Below, piece by piece: positions 47,247 through 54,534 of a stretch of DNA of 64,000 nt; within the stretch, counting starts at the first letter, position 1; every line of letters starts with the position of its first letter. The notes beneath the pieces were generated by a model. It searched no databases and had not been told where the DNA came from. It saw only the letters and a list, made by a program, of their open reading frames with translations. This stretch comes from Paenibacillus sp. JNUCC-31. Its GTDB lineage: Bacteria; Bacillota; Bacilli; Paenibacillales; Paenibacillaceae. Made by a program: the position numbers and the translations under genes. The stretch covers positions 3,782,001-3,846,000 of the forward strand of contig NZ_CP062165.1 of the NCBI RefSeq assembly GCF_014844075.1, read 5' to 3'.

Positions 47247-48371
47247 CTATACCTGGAAGATCGGTGAGATGGCTGGGGGCCATGAATCGGGAGAAGGCGA
47301 AGTGGAAGAGGGAAGTGACTGGTTCAAGATCGGAGATTCGTTCCATATGAAACTGGGGATTTCACGTCGTAACACGGGCGCTACATCCTGGGCAAAGCGT
47401 TCTACCTGCTCCAGCTGCTCCGCATGACTGAGACCATCCACGCTAATGCTCAATACCTGATGTCCATAGGCGGCATGGTAATTGAGGATCTTCTCAATGA
47501 CCTGCTCTGGACTACCAATCAGTACAGGTCCGTGCGCAATGTTATCCTCCAGGTCCTTAAAAGGCGATTGGTTGTGCTGTGCAGCGGCCGTAGCATGGAA
47601 TGCTTCATAATAAGGCGTATAACGACGAATTGCCTCTTCGCGTGTATTCGCGAGGTACAGGCTGCCTGCCCCGGAGCCAACCACCGCTCGGTTCGCATCA
47701 TGACCATAATAATCGAGACGCTCCCGGTAATGGTCAATTAACGCTTTGTACTTTGCCTGCGGGTGGAAGGAATTTGAGCTAAATATCGGTTCGCCATACT
47801 TGGCTGCAAGCTCGGTAGAGCGGGTGCTCGATGCGCTGCCATGCCAGATCGGAATGGATTGCTGGAGTGGTCTCGGCTGAGTGGTAACCTCATGAAGGGG
47901 AGGGCGATACGTTCCCTGCCAGGTTACATTCTCTTCAGTCCACAGCCGTTTCAGCAGTTCGTAGCGTTCACCGAGTGAATCCCATTGTTCCTCTTCGCTA
48001 ATGCCAAACAGGGGATAGTGCCGAGGGTCATTGCCTTTCCCGATGATCATCTCCAGCCGTCCACCGGATAATTGATCCAGTGTGGCATAATCCTCGGCAA
48101 CCCGTACCGGATCAAGTATACTGAGAACAGTGACCGTTGTTAGCAGCCGGATCCGTGAAGTCGCAGCAGCGACGGCGGTGAGCACAACGGGAGGCGAAGA
48201 GGACAGAAATGGAGCGCCATGCCGCTCACCGATCCCATATGCATCGAATCCCAGCCGTTCGGCCAGTTTGGCTTGTTCCAGAATATTGTGGAACTTCTGT
48301 TGTGTTGTTAGTGATTCACCGGTAACGGCATTTGGAAGATTCATCATGAGACTGAATAGGGCAAATTTCAT
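47247..48371 (-). CDS. LLM-class flavin-dependent oxidoreductase (bacterial-luciferase-like)
   Basis: A 374-residue TIM-barrel flavoprotein. Motifs are LGFDAYGIGERHG near residue 40, TSRIRLLTTVTVLSILDPVR near 90, and LSGGRLEMIIGKGNDP near 120, with a characteristic WHGSASSTRST segment. Such enzymes oxidise small organics with FMNH2 and O2; the substrate is unknown. The last 30 residues are Ser/Pro-rich and not family-typical. It stands alone, convergent with tetR. Confidence 0.88.
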   Translation of the reverse strand: MKFALFSLMMNLPNAVTGESLTTQQKFHNILEQAKLAERLGFDAYGIGERHGAPFLSSSPPVVLTAVAAATSRIRLLTTVTVLSILDPVRVAEDYATLDQLSGGRLEMIIGKGNDPRHYPLFGISEEEQWDSLGERYELLKRLWTEENVTWQGTYRPPLHEVTTQPRPLQQSIPIWHGSASSTRSTELAAKYGEPIFSSNSFHPQAKYKALIDHYRERLDYYGHDANRAVVGSGAGSLYLANTREEAIRRYTPYYEAFHATAAAQHNQSPFKDLEDNIAHGPVLIGSPEQVIEKILNYHAAYGHQVLSISVDGLSHAEQLEQVERFAQDVAPVLRREIPSFIWNESPILNQSLPSSTSPSPDSWPPAISPIFQV

Positions 48372-48556: not shown

Positions 48557-48585
48557 TTGACCGCTGTAAAATTTAGGATTAAAAT
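48557..48585 (+). promoter_or_regulatory. Promoter of the first AimR/Alo-like receptor gene
   Basis: TTGACC, 17 bases, TAAAAT. The block from -35 through -10 (spacer ...GTAAAATTTAGGAT) is nearly identical to that at 50204-50232 before the paralogue, so the spacer may also carry an operator for the receptor. Confidence 0.7.
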
Positions 48586-48639
48586 TGTACATATCATAGA
48601 AATTCAAATTTATGGATTTTCATTGTGGAGGTGGGAGAC

Positions 48640-50031
48640 ATGGAACCTACAACTACGATACGCTCCTTTATTGAGGACTACATCAGGAAACAGGGCTATA
48701 CCCTGCAATACTTTGCCGATATATCGGGTGTGAACGCTGGAACGTTAAGTGCGATCATCAAAGGGACGCGGCCAATCGCCATGGCTCAACTGGATCTGAT
48801 TACTCAAGGTATGAAGCTGGAAGAGGGGCATTTCTACGAAATTTACGGCGCTGAATGTTTCGTGGAGTCTGCCCCGCATTGGAGAAGGCTGGAGCCGTTT
48901 CTGCAGCGTTGTGCCGAGCTGGACAAGCTCGAATGCATTCAGAAGGTGATCCAGCAAGTGACGGATGATCGTTCGTACATTTCGGAATTGTTCGAGATGG
49001 CAGAGGGCATGCTTGAACGAGGACAAAAGAAAGCAGCCCGCATGTTATATGAATGCGTTGCCGAGTGTGAGAAGTACCAACACTCGGAACGTCTCGCGTT
49101 GTGCCAATATCGCATTTTCACACTATCTCTGGGTCAGGATCAGCATGAAAATCTCAGGGCGGCAGTTCACTTTGAGCCATATATTAATCGGCTGGATGAA
49201 GAGCGACAGCTCGATGCGATCAAGGATCTGGCGAATACATATTTGGCTTTGAGATATTGGGACAAGGTGTCCGATCTTGGAGGAGAGTTGGAGCAGAAAA
49301 CAAGTTTCTTGAACTCTTATAAAAAGAGAAAGACGGAAACTCTAAGAATCGCAGCTTATCCTATTTTTGTATATTCCGCATATTCAAATTTGCTACGGGC
49401 AGCCGCATGTGATGGAAGGGAAGAATACTCTGAAGCCCTCCGATATACTGAGGCGTACTCTAAATTAATTAGAATTGAACAACCAAATGAAGAAGATCTC
49501 ATATTCATTAATAAGTTTAGTGGATGGGCGGAGGTAAACCATTACTTATACAGACTTATGATGGGTGATTCTGAGGTCATACGGCCTTATATTGCCTTTA
49601 TTGAAAAGAATGAGGCAGAGATTTTGCCTGCATTAGTCAAAATAATGGAAGCGGCAAACCATCATAATATAGATGTTGATGCAGTTCTCAATCGGTTGGA
49701 GTCATACATTTCAATGTACGCCAAAACTTATGGGGATATCGGGAGTTATACGGAACAGATTACGAGTGGAAGATACGTGCAATTCCTTAAAGAGGTAGCA
49801 ATATACCAATTTCAGAGAGAAAGATACACAACAGGATTTCAGTACTTGTTAAACTGTCTGGCTCTAGCCAAAAGTATGAAGAGTGAATCCATCATTATAC
49901 AGTGTGTAGCTCTATTTGAAAGACATAGAGTCAGAGCTTCAATAGATTTAGAAATTAAATATAAAACTTTAATTGAGGAGGTCTACAGTAATTATGAGAA
50001 AAAAAGCAGCTTTGATCGTAGTTTTGTTTAG
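48640..50031 (+). CDS. aloR: AimR/Alo-like HTH-TPR quorum-sensing receptor (first copy)
   Basis: A 463-residue cytoplasmic regulator with an N-terminal Cro/C1-type helix-turn-helix (about residues 5-60, with LQYFADISGVNAGTLSAIIK) followed by about 380 residues of helical tetratricopeptide-like repeats (KKAARMLYECVAECEKY, RYTTGFQYLLNCLALAKSM). This is the architecture of RRNPP peptide receptors, and the HTH/TPR spacing fits AimR-like (Alo) receptors described in Paenibacillus. ATG 48640 lies eight bases after GGAGG. Its 3' end overlaps a secreted-peptide gene by 38 bases. It probably binds DNA and is switched by the re-imported peptide. Confidence 0.82.
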   Translation: MEPTTTIRSFIEDYIRKQGYTLQYFADISGVNAGTLSAIIKGTRPIAMAQLDLITQGMKLEEGHFYEIYGAECFVESAPHWRRLEPFLQRCAELDKLECIQKVIQQVTDDRSYISELFEMAEGMLERGQKKAARMLYECVAECEKYQHSERLALCQYRIFTLSLGQDQHENLRAAVHFEPYINRLDEERQLDAIKDLANTYLALRYWDKVSDLGGELEQKTSFLNSYKKRKTETLRIAAYPIFVYSAYSNLLRAAACDGREEYSEALRYTEAYSKLIRIEQPNEEDLIFINKFSGWAEVNHYLYRLMMGDSEVIRPYIAFIEKNEAEILPALVKIMEAANHHNIDVDAVLNRLESYISMYAKTYGDIGSYTEQITSGRYVQFLKEVAIYQFQRERYTTGFQYLLNCLALAKSMKSESIIIQCVALFERHRVRASIDLEIKYKTLIEEVYSNYEKKSSFDRSFV

Positions 50032-50122
50032 TGCTGTTATATTATTTAGTTTGTATCCTCAACCTATTCCCAGTAATACTATGATGTATAGTCCAAGCAC
50101 TCATGGTGGTGCAGGATTGTAA
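49994..50122 (+). CDS. aloP: Signalling pre-propeptide (AloP/AimP/Phr-like), 42 residues
   Basis: The frame starts inside the receptor gene in another frame. A basic n-region (MRKKAA), a hydrophobic core (LIVVLFSAVILFSL) and a polar tail ending YSPSTHGGAGL form a Sec-exported peptide precursor. The active signal is expected in the C-terminal 6-10 residues; the His-Gly-rich end fits what I recall of Alo peptides. GAGGAGG lies 13 bases upstream (long spacing). A terminator follows at 50155. Peptide cleavage and identity are inference. Confidence 0.72.
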   Translation: MRKKAALIVVLFSAVILFSLYPQPIPSNTMMYSPSTHGGAGL

Positions 50123-50154
50123 TTGCACTATACTCCAATCCTCAAACTAGGCAA

Positions 50155-50195
50155 GCGGTATTGATCCTATCTAAGGACTATACTGCTTTTTATTT
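50155..50195 (+). terminator. Terminator of the receptor-peptide unit
   Basis: GCGGTAT...CC pairs with GG...ATACTGC (one G-U), followed by TTTTTATTTT. Confidence 0.7.
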
Positions 50196-50203
50196 TGCGC
50201 ACA

Positions 50204-50232
50204 TTGACCATTGTAAAATTCAGGATTAAAAT
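50204..50232 (+). promoter_or_regulatory. Promoter of the second AimR/Alo-like receptor gene
   Basis: TTGACC, 17 bases, TAAAAT, with a spacer nearly identical to that of the first receptor promoter (48557-48585). Confidence 0.7.
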
Positions 50233-50291: not shown

Positions 50292-51647
50292 TTGAAACTT
50301 GCACCTACGATACGCACATATATAGAGAATCACATAAGAGAACGAGGATATAAACTACAGCAATTCTCAGATGTCACGGGTGTCAACGTTGGCACACTAA
50401 GTGCCATCCTTAAGGGCAGCAGGCCTCTAGCCATGAATCAATTGGATCAGATCACATCTGGAATGGGGCTTGAAAAGGGATATTTCTATGAAATGTACAG
50501 TGTGGAGTGTTTTGTGGAAGCGGCACCGCATTGGAGACGTTTGGAACCTTTTCTGTATCGCTGCGCTGAACTTAACAAGCTAGACTGTATTAAAAAGGTA
50601 GTTTATCAGGTTACAGATGATCGATCCTATATTTCAGAACTGTTTGAAATGGCAGAGAATCTATATTCCAAAGAAATGAATGAAGCGGCGCTTATTTTAT
50701 ATGAATGTGTAGCCGCAGGTGAGAAATATCAGCACTCGGAACGGTTGGCGTTATGCCAGTACCGTATTTTTTTGCTTCATAAAACAATGAGCAAATTCGA
50801 TAATCTGGCAGCAGCGGTCCAATTTGAACCCTATATTGAGAAATTGGATGAAGAAATACAACTGGATGCTGTTAAAGATTTGGCGAATGTTTATAATACA
50901 ATACATCATTGGGATAAGGTATATGAATTGGCCGAAGAACTGGAACGAAAAGTTGATTTTCAACTTGAACTTCAATCTCGAAGACGAAAAAATAAAAAAA
51001 GAATTGCCTTTTACCCCATATTTACATATAAAGCATATGCGAATCTATTGAAGGCAAGTGTCTGTGAAGTGCGTAAGGAATATGAAAAAGCTTTGGAATA
51101 TACAGATGTTTACGTGAATGTTATTGAAATCTCTAATCCAACAGAAGAAGAGCGAGAATTAATAGAACGTTTCAAAGGATGGGCAGTGGGAAATCGGTAT
51201 TTATACCGTTTGATGAATGGGAATTATGAGGTTATTGAACCTTATCTGAATTACCTTGACGCTAATCCTCATGAGATTTTAACAGCATTCGTAAATATTG
51301 TGCAAGCAGCTAACCAGCACTCACTGGATATTGATTCTGCATTGCATAGGTTCGATCCTTATATCAAACAATTCAACACGGATTTGCATTTAAAAGGAAC
51401 GTATAATATGCAAATGTTGAATCATAGATATATACGTTTTTATTATGAATTAGCAAAGTACAGGCTCCACCAACAAAGATACGCAACGGGGATTGAAACT
51501 TTGCTCACGAGCCTGGAGCTATCATCATCAAGTAACGATGACCTAATGTCTATTAAATCTATTGATTTGTATGGAAAATTTAGGAGACATGCAACGAACG
51601 AGCAGGAAGAGCAGTACAACAGATTAATAGAAAGACTGAGAAATTAA
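50292..51647 (+). CDS. AimR/Alo-like HTH-TPR receptor (second copy, no adjacent pre-propeptide gene)
   Basis: A 451-residue paralogue of the first receptor. The helix-turn-helix is LQQFSDVTGVNVGTLSAI, and long blocks such as APHWRRLEPFL and QVTDDRSYISELFEMAE are shared. The C-terminal half has diverged and is more AT-rich. I place the start at TTG 50292 after GGGGGTGGG, matching the first residues of the paralogue. No signal-peptide-bearing frame overlaps or follows its end; the next elements are an 11-codon micro-ORF and a Spo0E-like gene. It could respond to the first copy's peptide or to one encoded elsewhere. Confidence 0.8.
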   Translation: MKLAPTIRTYIENHIRERGYKLQQFSDVTGVNVGTLSAILKGSRPLAMNQLDQITSGMGLEKGYFYEMYSVECFVEAAPHWRRLEPFLYRCAELNKLDCIKKVVYQVTDDRSYISELFEMAENLYSKEMNEAALILYECVAAGEKYQHSERLALCQYRIFLLHKTMSKFDNLAAAVQFEPYIEKLDEEIQLDAVKDLANVYNTIHHWDKVYELAEELERKVDFQLELQSRRRKNKKRIAFYPIFTYKAYANLLKASVCEVRKEYEKALEYTDVYVNVIEISNPTEEERELIERFKGWAVGNRYLYRLMNGNYEVIEPYLNYLDANPHEILTAFVNIVQAANQHSLDIDSALHRFDPYIKQFNTDLHLKGTYNMQMLNHRYIRFYYELAKYRLHQQRYATGIETLLTSLELSSSSNDDLMSIKSIDLYGKFRRHATNEQEEQYNRLIERLRN

Positions 51648-51704: not shown

Positions 51705-51720
51705 AAAAGGGGTGCATGCG

Positions 51721-51897
51721 GTGATAGAACTGGAACAGATCAGAGACCAAATCGAGCAGAACAGGCAGGATATGCGTCGATTGGTGGAGAAGTATGGTAT
51801 AAATGACGATAAGGTTCTCCAGCAGTCTATGATGCTGGACGAACTGATTAATAAATATATTCGACTTAAAACGAATGGTATCGAATCGCATAAGTAA
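51721..51897 (+). CDS. Spo0E-like aspartyl-phosphate phosphatase (copy 1)
   Basis: About 58 residues forming two helices. The family signature is in QQSMMLDELINKY (Ser-x-x-x-Asp), with an amphipathic first helix EQIRDQIEQNRQDMRRLVEKYG. Spo0E-type proteins remove the phosphate from Spo0A and so delay sporulation. GTG 51721 is eight bases after AAAGGGG; an upstream in-frame GTG (51712) overlaps that site. It follows the second receptor gene and its micro-ORF on the same strand without a terminator, so it may be co-transcribed with the receptor. Confidence 0.82.
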   Translation: MIELEQIRDQIEQNRQDMRRLVEKYGINDDKVLQQSMMLDELINKYIRLKTNGIESHK

Positions 51898-52076: not shown

Positions 52077-52231
52077 GGACTCCATTTCCTCATAAATGCA
52101 ATATGTAGAAGAACTAAATAATGTATATCTACATATTGTAGTTGTGATGGATTTCACGGATTAATGCAACAAGCTGATTTATGAAAGTATTCCGTTGCAA
52201 ATAATCATTTTATTTTGCAAAGGAATAAAAT

Positions 52232-52267
52232 ATGAATTTTTTGGCAATGTATCCTAAAATATTTTAA
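52232..52267 (+). CDS. Micro-ORF of 11 codons before Spo0E-like gene (copy 2)
   Basis: ATG to TAA encoding MNFLAMYPKIF, twin of the micro-ORF at 51669. This copy has a good ribosome binding site, AAAGGA seven bases upstream. It ends just before the GAGGGGG of the Spo0E-like gene, an arrangement suited to translational coupling or leader-peptide control. Confidence 0.5.
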   Translation: MNFLAMYPKIF

Positions 52268-52285
52268 AAAGAGGGGGTGCATGCT

Positions 52286-52474
52286 GTGAGAGAACCGAAG
52301 CAGATTAGAGACCAAATCGAACGGAACAGGCATGAATTGAGTCGTTTGGCGGAGAATCATGGCATGCAAGACAAACAAGTCCTTCGACAGTCCATGGTAC
52401 TGGACGAGCTTATTAATGAATATAATCATTTTAAATATAAAAACCGTTTCAGGAACAGACAGCCGATTGCATAA
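52286..52474 (+). CDS. Spo0E-like aspartyl-phosphate phosphatase (copy 2)
   Basis: About 62 residues, paralogous to the gene at 51721 (shared RDQIERNRHELSRLAE and RQSMVLDELINEY with the Ser-x-x-x-Asp signature). GTG 52286 is eight bases after GAGGGGG. The duplication includes the leader and micro-ORF. The last codons run into a terminator hairpin. Expected role: dephosphorylation of Spo0A or a related response regulator. Confidence 0.8.
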   Translation: MREPKQIRDQIERNRHELSRLAENHGMQDKQVLRQSMVLDELINEYNHFKYKNRFRNRQPIA

Positions 52475-52704: not shown

Positions 52705-54534
52705 ATGGAAATGATGGACAAGGTACAGGATTATTTTGGAAGAAACATGAACCTGCGCACCAAGCTGCTCCTATTGTTCCTGGGGCTAACCTTGCTGCCG
52801 CTAAGCTTGCAGGGAGTCGTGAATTACCTGCATTTCTCGCAGACGATTGATCGCAAGACGGAGCAGTTCACCATTGATATGGTTCGCCAGATTAATACCA
52901 ATCTGAATCGGCTGCTCAAGGACTTCGAGCGGTTGTCGCTCTTGCCGCTCTACGATCAGATGGTGCTCGGCATTCTGGGCAAATACAATGCTCCGATGGG
53001 ATCGGGTACATGGGCGCGGTCCGATGATTATCTGAAAATGAAGCTCTACACTTCCGGTCAAGCGTATGACCGACCGGAAATTCGTGGCATCCATCTGATC
53101 AGCAACAGTGGCATTTTGTTCTCCAATCTGGATTCGCTGGCAGTGAATCCGGTATGGGACAGCAGGCAGGATGACTGGTTTGCAGAGCTTAACGGCTCGG
53201 AAGGGGAATGGCGTCTGCTTCCTCCGCACGAACCCAGCTATTACACGGGCAGTCATGAAGAGCCGTATATATCGGTTGCCCGTGAGATTCGTGATCCGGG
53301 GACACTCCAGCGACTGGGCTACATTCTGATCGACATCCGGCTGGAAGCCTTCGGCCAACTCTTGTCCAATCTGAATTTTGAGCAAAATGCGAGCCTGATG
53401 ATTGTCGACAGCAAGCAGCGTCTCTTGTTCGAGCGCACCTCTGCCGGAGGTCTTTCCGCATACGACAAACTGTTAAAACATGGCCAGCTTCAAGGCTACG
53501 CAGGCAACCAGAAGGTTGTCCTTGATGGGAAGCCCTATCTCTACGTACAGCACCATTCCAGCTATTCAGGACTTTCGGTGATCAGCCTTACACCTATTGC
53601 CGTTATTCAGAAGGAGTCGGGCGAGATGCTCACGTTTACGTTTGGATTCGCTGTGTTATGTATGGCGGCCGTAGCAGTTCTCGCGGTTCTCTTATCCTAT
53701 CGCATAACGAGGCCGCTGATTCGATTGAAACACAATATGATTCGGGTAGAGCAGGGAGACTTTAGCCAGCGCGTAGCGCACTTTAGCAGTGATGAGTTCG
53801 GACAGATTAGCCGGGGTTTTAACCGAATGATGGAAGAGATTAACCGACTGTTCAACGAGGTATTTCTGTTGGGCATTCAAGAGCGAGAGGCGGAGTTGTC
53901 AGCATTGCAGAGCCAGATCAATCCCCATTTTATATACAACACATTGGAGTCCATCAACATGATGGCGGTTCGCCAGAAGCACGCTGAGGTGTCTGATATG
54001 GTGACGGCACTTGGCAAACTGCTGCGCTATACGATTGATAAGGTGGACCGGAGGGTTCCGCTTCAGGAAGAATTAGCTTTTGTACAATCCTATGTACGCA
54101 TTCAACAGGTACGTTATGACGGCAAGCTGGAGGTAATCTACGACATCGATGAAGCCATTACAGTGTGTCTGATTCCAAAGCTGATATTGCAGCCGTTGGT
54201 GGAGAACGCTGTCTACCATGGCATTGAAGGACAGGCGGATGGCGGAGTGATCTGGGTATCTGCATTGAAATTTGATGATGAGCTGCTGCTGATTGTGCGT
54301 GACAATGGCAAAGGCATGACTCAGGCGGAGATTGATGAATTAAATGAATTCATTGCTCGGCAGCCTTCCAATGAGGCCTTACGCTGCCATGCCGGGGACA
54401 GGCTGGGGCTTAACAATATCGCCCAAAGGCTCCACCTCATGTATGGAGAAGGCGGCAGCCTAAGCGTCGATAGCAGTCCCGGGCAGGGTCTGGCGGTCAC
54501 GATATCCATTGAACTTCAACCGAAAGGGGAATGA
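52705..54534 (+). CDS. YesM-type sensor histidine kinase
   Basis: A 609-residue membrane kinase. Transmembrane segment 1 is near residues 20-40, an extracellular sensor spans about 45-300, and transmembrane segment 2 (LTFTFGFAVLCMAAVAVLAV) is near 310-330. A HAMP domain follows (ITRPLIRLKHNMIRVEQGDF), then the His_kinase domain with the phospho-His in LQSQINPHFIYNTLESIN near 408, and a HATPase domain (VENAVYHGI, NGKGM, GLGLNN-like DRLGLNNIAQRL). It overlaps its response regulator by four bases. Such pairs sense extracellular sugars and activate the adjacent ABC importer genes. Confidence 0.92.
   Translation: MEMMDKVQDYFGRNMNLRTKLLLLFLGLTLLPLSLQGVVNYLHFSQTIDRKTEQFTIDMVRQINTNLNRLLKDFERLSLLPLYDQMVLGILGKYNAPMGSGTWARSDDYLKMKLYTSGQAYDRPEIRGIHLISNSGILFSNLDSLAVNPVWDSRQDDWFAELNGSEGEWRLLPPHEPSYYTGSHEEPYISVAREIRDPGTLQRLGYILIDIRLEAFGQLLSNLNFEQNASLMIVDSKQRLLFERTSAGGLSAYDKLLKHGQLQGYAGNQKVVLDGKPYLYVQHHSSYSGLSVISLTPIAVIQKESGEMLTFTFGFAVLCMAAVAVLAVLLSYRITRPLIRLKHNMIRVEQGDFSQRVAHFSSDEFGQISRGFNRMMEEINRLFNEVFLLGIQEREAELSALQSQINPHFIYNTLESINMMAVRQKHAEVSDMVTALGKLLRYTIDKVDRRVPLQEELAFVQSYVRIQQVRYDGKLEVIYDIDEAITVCLIPKLILQPLVENAVYHGIEGQADGGVIWVSALKFDDELLLIVRDNGKGMTQAEIDELNEFIARQPSNEALRCHAGDRLGLNNIAQRLHLMYGEGGSLSVDSSPGQGLAVTISIELQPKGE

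Follow-up and report, generated by a model that had tools for sequence, protein, structure and literature searches.

A receptor gene and a short overlapping pre-peptide gene in the window (that is, the whole 64,000-nt stretch of DNA analysed here, which lies within a 7.55-Mb single-contig genome) most probably form an Alo-type RRNPP peptide quorum-sensing unit that is at the same time a pherotype locus with an exchangeable block of sensor half and peptide; we put the probability of this reading at roughly three in four. Receptor codons ~195-463 and aloP make up a block of ~980 bp that has been exchanged between lineages. Genomes with as much as 99% identity in the surroundings of the locus carry different sensor halves and signals, yet share the same promoter, DNA-binding half and probable targets. 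Such cassette exchange looks as if a lineage could switch its communication channel while keeping what the signal controls, which bears on the question why bacteria keep many versions of one signaling system. The locus and its flanks are composed as follows.

47247-48371, minus strand: LLM gene, left flank of receptor 1, which we take from its appearance to be a luciferase-like monooxygenase
48557..48585, plus strand: promoter-like site of receptor 1, TTGACC-17-TAAAAT (promoter scan and block conservation in 46 loci; motif repeated at 50204)
48640..50031, plus strand: receptor 1 (AloR type), 463 aa with N-terminal HTH (open reading frame, Pfam HTH_3, Alo kinship)
48640..49222, plus strand: constant part of receptor 1, codons 1 to ~195, comprising the HTH and what follows (diverges like the flanking LLM gene)
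49222..50199, borders approximate, plus strand: exchangeable cassette of receptor codons ~195-463, aloP and terminator region (mosaic and synonymous divergence, GC3 step at codon 198)
49994..50122, plus strand: aloP, 42-aa pre-peptide with the tail THGGAGL (open reading frame, present in all 46 intact orthologous loci)
50153..50195, plus strand: terminator-like hairpin (50153-50188) and T-run (folding z score)
50204..50232, plus strand: promoter-like site of receptor 2, same motif as for receptor 1 (promoter scan, motif repeat)
50292..51647, plus strand: receptor 2, a tandem AloR paralogue without peptide frame (53% identical to receptor 1; no HG-tailed frame listed at its end)
51712..51897, plus strand: Spo0E-like gene 1 (Pfam PF09388, E 1.4e-12)
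52277..52474, plus strand: Spo0E-like gene 2 (Pfam PF09388, E 2.1e-12)
52705-54534: HK gene, right flank of the Spo0E-like genes, presumably a sensor kinase judging by its appearance

All genes between the LLM and HK genes lie on the plus strand. Receptor 1 runs from an ATG at 48640, with GGAGGTGG ahead of it at 48627-48634, to a stop at 50031, and aloP begins in a different frame with an ATG at 49994, preceded by GAGGAGG at 49975-49981. An earlier note on this DNA had described the 3' end of an HTH receptor gene overlapping a 42-codon peptide gene in another frame, and this arrangement was recovered with an overlap of 38 nt. Likewise, the signal-peptide-like features and the YSPSTHGGAGL tail claimed for the peptide are present in the form of a basic start, a hydrophobic core (hydrophobicity being a simple window score) and the tail itself. 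Receptor 2 and the two Spo0E-like genes are absent from that note, as is the exchangeable block of sensor half and peptide gene.

The unit had furthermore been described as bracketed by its own promoter and terminator. For the promoter, support comes from the conservation of the block ahead of receptor 1, which is nearly invariant across 46 loci, and from the repetition of TTGACCNNTGTAAAAT, whose exact occurrences in the window lie only ahead of receptor 1 and receptor 2 and which, with up to 2 mismatches allowed, finds four matches in the window, a number reached in 0 of 100 shuffles. The count of a promoter scan, with 10 sites in the window as compared to 8.6 expected from shuffles, is by itself no evidence for TTGACC-17-TAAAAT. 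The terminator was recovered as a terminator-like hairpin (50153-50188, z -2.25, 5 of 200 shuffles folding equally well) followed by a T-run, although a simple terminator scan did not list the hairpin. No dyad was established in the conserved promoter block, where an operator was looked for. Another conserved block, TTTTGCAAAGGAATAAAATATGAATTTTTTGGCAATGTATCCTAAAAT, is located in window positions 52190-52280 ahead of the second spo0E-like gene and recurs at the corresponding position in the majority of the listed loci. A good -35 element was not seen in this block, which is possibly a candidate activator site, and the block before the spo0E genes gave no clear match to the receptor promoter block.

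According to passages of PMC7425212 (Voichek 2020), Alo systems are of a kind in which an HTH receptor with a TPR-type C-terminus is paired with an adjacent or overlapping short pre-peptide, and several Alo loci of P. polymyxa, the experimentally tested Alo13 among them, have a spo0E-like gene downstream. The same passages report that the AloP13 peptide SHGRGG lowers spo0E expression via AloR13, state the Alo13 phenotype as unknown, and describe the detection of AloP fragments of P. polymyxa in the culture medium. An SHGRGG (Alo13-type) tail is encoded beside a receptor at four loci that we found, and at three of these the fetched stretch also includes a downstream spo0E-like match. Receptor 1 matches the four receptors over their full length (E 7e-81 to 5e-85) with 33-35% identity, and the three of them that were placed in a tree fall into a clade distant from that of the window receptor. 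A comparison with the P. polymyxa Alo loci, which the earlier note had suggested, thus upholds the kinship, and the low identity, the distant clade and the different tail make the window unit an Alo system rather than an orthologue of Alo13. Compared with Alo13 as described in that source, the window shares a same-family HTH receptor, a short pre-peptide overlapping its 3' end and an HG tail, as well as two traits reported for Alo in P. polymyxa more generally, namely receptors without a peptide and a spo0E-like gene downstream; it differs in its receptor sequence, in THGGAGL as compared to SHGRGG, and in having a tandem receptor and two spo0E-like genes.

Receptor 1 shows a Pfam match to HTH_3 (E 4.8e-5, residues 14-54) and no other Pfam match, TPR included, at E up to 1. 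When 39 receptors (two from the window and 37 from relatives) were scanned, HTH_3 was found in 32 and TPR_12 in 7 (E up to 0.01). The earlier note had called the receptor "AimR-like (Alo)", which is not supported: in PMC7425212, as far as its relevant passages go, Alo stands for 'Autoinducer peptide Locus', and no AimR chain was among the solved-structure matches at E up to 1, whether a single protein or a 110-row profile was used, these matches being HTHs and unrelated helical proteins. PHROG matches are named only 'transcriptional regulator' and lie mostly over the HTH. The closest named relatives of receptor 1 belong to Paenibacillus taichungensis (99%) and P. pabuli (95%), all named genome matches to the receptor (32 loci) are from Paenibacillus, and the 33 plasmid records with a match are labelled Paenibacillus (24), Brevibacillus (6), Brevibacterium (2) and Arthrobacter (1). 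The classification as a receptor/pre-peptide pair of the Alo-type RRNPP group, as proposed in the earlier note, is accordingly well supported by the common layout, by the Paenibacillus relatives and by the persistence of the peptide.

This persistence was followed through 75 genomes (the window's own and 74 others), 47 of the 74 being taken as orthologous from the match list and fetched along with 13 polymyxa-type loci. Excluding L116 and L117, whose receptor frame is broken, leaves 46 of the resulting 48 loci (window included); trees and LLM comparisons are based on 39 of these, as 7 lack an adjoining LLM gene. With one genome per species, all class variation described below is variation between species only. 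In each of the 46 orthologous loci, all with an intact receptor, an open peptide frame occupies the same position, with aloP starting at -38, -47 or -53 from the receptor stop, and is therefore not a chance frame; its loss from genomes that keep the receptor, which the earlier note had named as evidence against the pairing, was looked for and does not occur. All 46 AloP tails carry H at -6 and G at -5, position -3 is G in 42 and A in 4 (A only in the window's class), and position -1 is L (30), Y (10), V (3) or I (3), while the last heptamer occurs in 25 different versions. In L116, the peptide frame is open beside the broken frame of receptor 1, and in L117 stops are found in the peptide frame too. 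The latter locus was considered as a receptor/orphan chimera, which was rejected, as it holds an SHGTGGY-class receptor with a broken frame.

By single linkage at 80% identity of the receptor's C-terminal half, the 46 loci fall into 19 cassette classes, seven of them within the window's 11-genome group. Peptide and sensor half are inherited together: over 1035 pairs, peptide identity tracks that of the C-terminal half (r 0.84) and not that of the N-terminal half (r 0.21). Divergent receptor-signal alleles at one locus with co-varying sensor and signal, the feature of a pherotype locus, are thus present between species. The mosaic shows in comparison with six close relatives that belong to other classes (L076, L077, L079, L087, L088, and L110), which have 93-97% nucleotide identity to the window in the LLM gene and 90-99% in receptor codons 1-200, as compared to 39-66% across the sensor half, aloP and the following gap. 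Identity drops at approximately window position 49239. In L076, L077, and L079, it rises again at approximately 50199, where the next promoter begins, and receptor 2 is 89-97% identical; in L088, identity in receptor 2 is high for the first ~150 codons only, and in L087 and L110 no such recovery is seen in this gene. The tandem receptor of L088 is itself mosaic, with its initial ~150 codons matching those of the window's group and the remainder replaced from a border at about window position 50739.

The same left border recurs in pairs of other lineages, with or without tandem receptors. A three-segment border fit to 137 pairs (LLM >92% identical, different class) placed it at a median of codon 195 (middle half 194-201, extremes 141 and 559), and the right border, estimated for the 35 of these pairs whose right flank is >80% identical, at a median of 70 nt past the aloP stop (range 13-652). 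In pairs outside these 35, tandem receptors or other sequence differ as well, so that the replaced block is often longer. In the pair L105-L115, a non-aligning block that holds both cassette and tandem receptor is flanked by sequence with 99.2% identity over 4.6 kb before and 7.3 kb after it. In the window, the promoter and N-terminal half of receptor 1 and those of receptor 2 furthermore flank the cassette as a direct repeat (693 nt, 68.5% identical), which might aid recombination.

Divergence at synonymous sites points in the same direction. Among 171 close genome pairs (LLM pS <0.30), 146 differ in class, and the median pS in these amounts to 0.20 for LLM, 0.24 for the N-terminal half and 0.77 for the C-terminal half, which argues for replacement rather than weak constraint. 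LLM pS predicts that of the N-terminal half (r 0.97) and little of that of the C-terminal half (r 0.33; 741 pairs). Near-identical cassettes are, on the other hand, common to some different species: in 12 of 34 same-class pairs, pS of the C-terminal half is less than half of LLM pS, as for L085-L089 (0.00 as compared to 0.16), and between the window and L071 dS is 0.06 in the C-terminal half versus 0.30 in the N-terminal half and 0.25 in LLM. Trees disagree accordingly. Mapped onto the flank tree (39 loci), four superclades of the C-terminal half require 18 changes versus 16-24 (mean 21.1) in 200 shuffles, which makes the sensor type nearly unlinked from lineage; the 80% classes require 23 changes on the 39 rows, a count that says little because many classes are singletons. 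AU tests, in which the groups were picked after the trees had been seen, rejected a clade of the 11-genome group when run on data from the C-terminal half (p 1e-47) and, on flank data, monophyly of the NHGAGGY class (p 1e-10). A PHI-type test was discarded as proof of the cassette for being non-specific, since it is significant for the N-terminal half (0 of 500 shuffles) and LLM (8 of 500) too; recombination in the region is not confined to the cassette and touches the flanks.

Base composition marks the block as well. The cassette is AT-rich as compared to the constant half, with a GC3 of 0.32 in the C-terminal and 0.56 in the N-terminal half (LLM 0.53, HK 0.58), and the best change point of mean GC3 lies at codon 198. 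Across the 46 loci, the ranges are disjoint (lowest N-terminal half 0.47, highest C-terminal half 0.42). At a second Alo locus of the group (9 genomes), GC3 is 0.43 and 0.39 in the N- and C-terminal halves, respectively, and at the polymyxa-type locus (13 genomes) it is 0.48 and 0.44 with no comparable drop in identity; given these milder contrasts, the strong mosaic is seen only at the window's locus among the three examined. The second Alo locus (L167-L175, own copy C1:3203391-3204767) has two milder alleles of C-terminal half and peptide among its nine genomes, with the tails NDHGLGT and ADHGFGT.

How such a unit might function can be sketched from the better studied Alo13, a distant paralogue on which the proposed control of Spo0E rests. 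The pre-peptide from the overlapping frame would be secreted, cut to a short C-terminal peptide (approximately THGGAGL), taken up again and bound by the C-terminal half of the receptor, and binding would alter the action of the N-terminal HTH half at conserved promoters, most likely the receptor's own and those of the downstream spo0E-like genes. In analogy to AloP13 (SHGRGG in PMC7425212, as far as its passages on this peptide go), the signal itself probably corresponds to the last 6-10 residues of AloP, and by the same analogy less activation of the spo0E-like genes would result in a shift in sporulation timing. As the 3' half of the receptor gene is contiguous with the peptide gene, one exchange can change both, and a single recombined block of ~980 bp would replace lock and key while DNA-binding half, promoter and targets stay; with the constant half retained, the regulon would presumably be kept. 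Lock and key would thus travel together in one event, which may offer a reason for the position of the peptide gene at the 3' end of the receptor gene.

A more far-reaching version of this reading is that an AT-rich cassette of sensor and signal has been recombined onto a fixed DNA-binding half in the style of mating types or polymorphic toxins, and that the same sporulation-phosphatase genes have thereby come under as many as 19 or more private channels, between which a lineage can switch in one event. We regard this as an open bet at slightly less than even odds. If true, control of these genes would be split among private channels, with one-event changes of channel per lineage, and the classes would presumably be deaf to each other's peptides. 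The natural allele swaps allow direct tests of channel specificity, cross-talk and rare-channel fitness, and having 19 classes on the same DNA-binding half would make specificity residues easier to map.

The alternative that deserves most attention is an ordinary Alo pair in which blocks are exchanged and all classes nevertheless answer a common HG core, so that no separate channels exist. The invariant H-G at -6/-5 and the G or A at -3 in all loci are in keeping with it, recombination is common in the region anyway, and cross-talk between pherotypes is known from PlcR-PapR in the passages available of PMC7267880. We nonetheless consider it unlikely, since peptide and sensor half change together (r 0.84) and since the 146 of 171 close pairs that differ in class are presumably more than a neutral block beside conserved genes would show. 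A second possibility is that the cassette varies to escape an antagonist, that is, a phage or rival protein or peptide hitting the sensor half, and not for the sake of signal privacy; phage proteins targeting an RRNPP receptor have precedent in paratox and ComR, as far as could be gathered from partial sources, yet the peptide co-varies with the sensor half, which escape alone would not need, and the scenario appears improbable. Divergence in place without any exchange, driven by diversifying selection in each lineage, would affect the sensor half as the part expected to change under specificity selection, but it is hard to reconcile with synonymous saturation in the C-terminal half only, with the tree conflict and the GC3 step, and with same-class cassettes common to different lineages, 12 of 34 pairs being younger than half the flank, and we give it hardly any weight. 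That the peptide frame encodes a leader or an intracellular micro-protein instead of a secreted signal is similarly implausible in view of the hydrophobic start and the HG tail, both retained in all 46 loci, and of the AloP fragments found in P. polymyxa medium (PMC7425212, in the passages cited above).

The preferred reading of an Alo unit with an exchangeable block of sensor half and peptide has several counterparts among known systems, for which we draw on passages of the papers cited. PlcR-PapR of the Bacillus cereus group (PMC7267880) likewise has an RRNPP receptor that combines a conserved HTH with a variable signal-binding region, and its alleles are not confined to clades or species; four pherotypes are recognized there as compared to 19 classes (80% cut) at the window locus, and sharp block borders and a composition step, both present here, are not described in those passages. 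In ComRS of Streptococcus suis (PMC4072589, in part), DNA-binding domains are identical, variation resides in the C-terminal half and the pherotype was moved by allelic replacement, whereas only two alleles were compared, the output is competence and the receptor family is another. Rap-Phr of Bacillus (PMC5199041, in part) resembles the window in its many receptor-peptide pairs, orphan receptors and sporulation among the outputs, but differs in that no evidence was found for divergence of Rap via recombination between homologues. ComQXPA works through a membrane kinase and a modified peptide instead of a single cytosolic receptor. Its polymorphic signaling locus in Bacillus subtilis is incongruent with the core-gene tree, as stated in passages of PMC4408185, and resembles the window in this respect. 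Polymorphic toxin systems (passages of PMC3482391) share the layout of a constant 5' gene body and an exchangeable 3' cassette bringing a partner gene, which is an analogy only, the pair there consisting of a toxin and an immunity gene. Arbitrium AimR-AimP, which is compared with Alo in passages of PMC7425212, is similar to Alo in that a receptor and a peptide lower the expression of the next gene; it is a phage system, without a sequence match to the window receptor among solved structures. Theory for such allele diversity exists (PMC6461992, in the part consulted).

Passages of PMC7425212 on recombination, pherotypes, variability and divergence hold nothing on cassette exchange, and no report of allele exchange in Alo was found in these, in the relevant parts of PMC10075063, or elsewhere in the literature searched (preprints, supplements and most subscription papers lying outside its scope); the corresponding parts of PMC9765709 and PMC5131902 contain nothing on exchange in Alo either. 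What is new, judged against these sources, is hence the exchange of a sensor-half/peptide cassette in Alo, as pherotypes with a constant DNA-binding domain are already known from PlcR-PapR and S. suis ComRS.

Receptor 2 belongs to a group of tandem receptors that vary in number: one full-length copy is found in 17 of the 48 loci, two in 6, three in 2 and none in 23, the last including L074, whose contig ends ~1.1 kb past the receptor, and several loci holding fragments. Among the candidate frames listed for the ends of tandem receptors, of which 35 are full-length, not one has an HG tail. In 23 loci, the C-terminal half of the first copy follows the N-terminal half of receptor 1, and thus the host lineage, with r 0.66 (0 of 999 permutations), and the neighboring cassette with r 0.27 (25 of 999). 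The idea that tandem receptors are an archive of retired sensor alleles was rejected, as no C-terminal half among the 35 full-length copies exceeds an identity of 0.42 to a receptor-1 C-terminal half. Since they follow lineage and are not retired alleles, tandem receptors are probably not specific listeners to the neighbor's peptide.

Further Alo-like genes occur elsewhere. Of two additional Alo receptors encoded by the window's genome, the first has a close match in just 1 of 10 close genomes (91%) and the second in 2 (75% and 59%). The same genome contains at L003 (C1:2716975-2718324, minus strand) an Alo-type receptor match with two internal TGA codons, after which a pre-peptide frame ending in NGHGTGS follows. 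In Brevibacillus phage SecTim467 (L009), an Alo-like receptor (26% identity) that carries the annotation DNA-binding protein is directly preceded by an annotated Spo0E gene; a small frame, likewise annotated, lies at the end of the receptor and has neither a hydrophobic start nor an HG tail. The viral contig IMGVR_UViG_2703719428_000002 (L176) holds an Alo-type receptor of 47% identity overlapped by a frame ending in IHGLGG. A phage source of the cassette was considered and rejected, the matches being confined to two distant phage records and one viral contig. Finally, L007 of the window's own genome (C1:4724704-4725462) and L151, L152, and L153 of a second genome are receptor frames of 278-312 codons without an HTH that match AloR only from about position 184-191 on and thus start near the cassette border of the window receptor. 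L007, L151, and L152 are followed by a pre-peptide frame of their own with the tails NHGVGH, NHGVFSHRS, and FYHGANH. Such HTH-less sensor-plus-peptide genes may be part of the pool from which cassettes arise; short-frame matches to L007 (185-387 codons) are present in all 10 close genomes searched.
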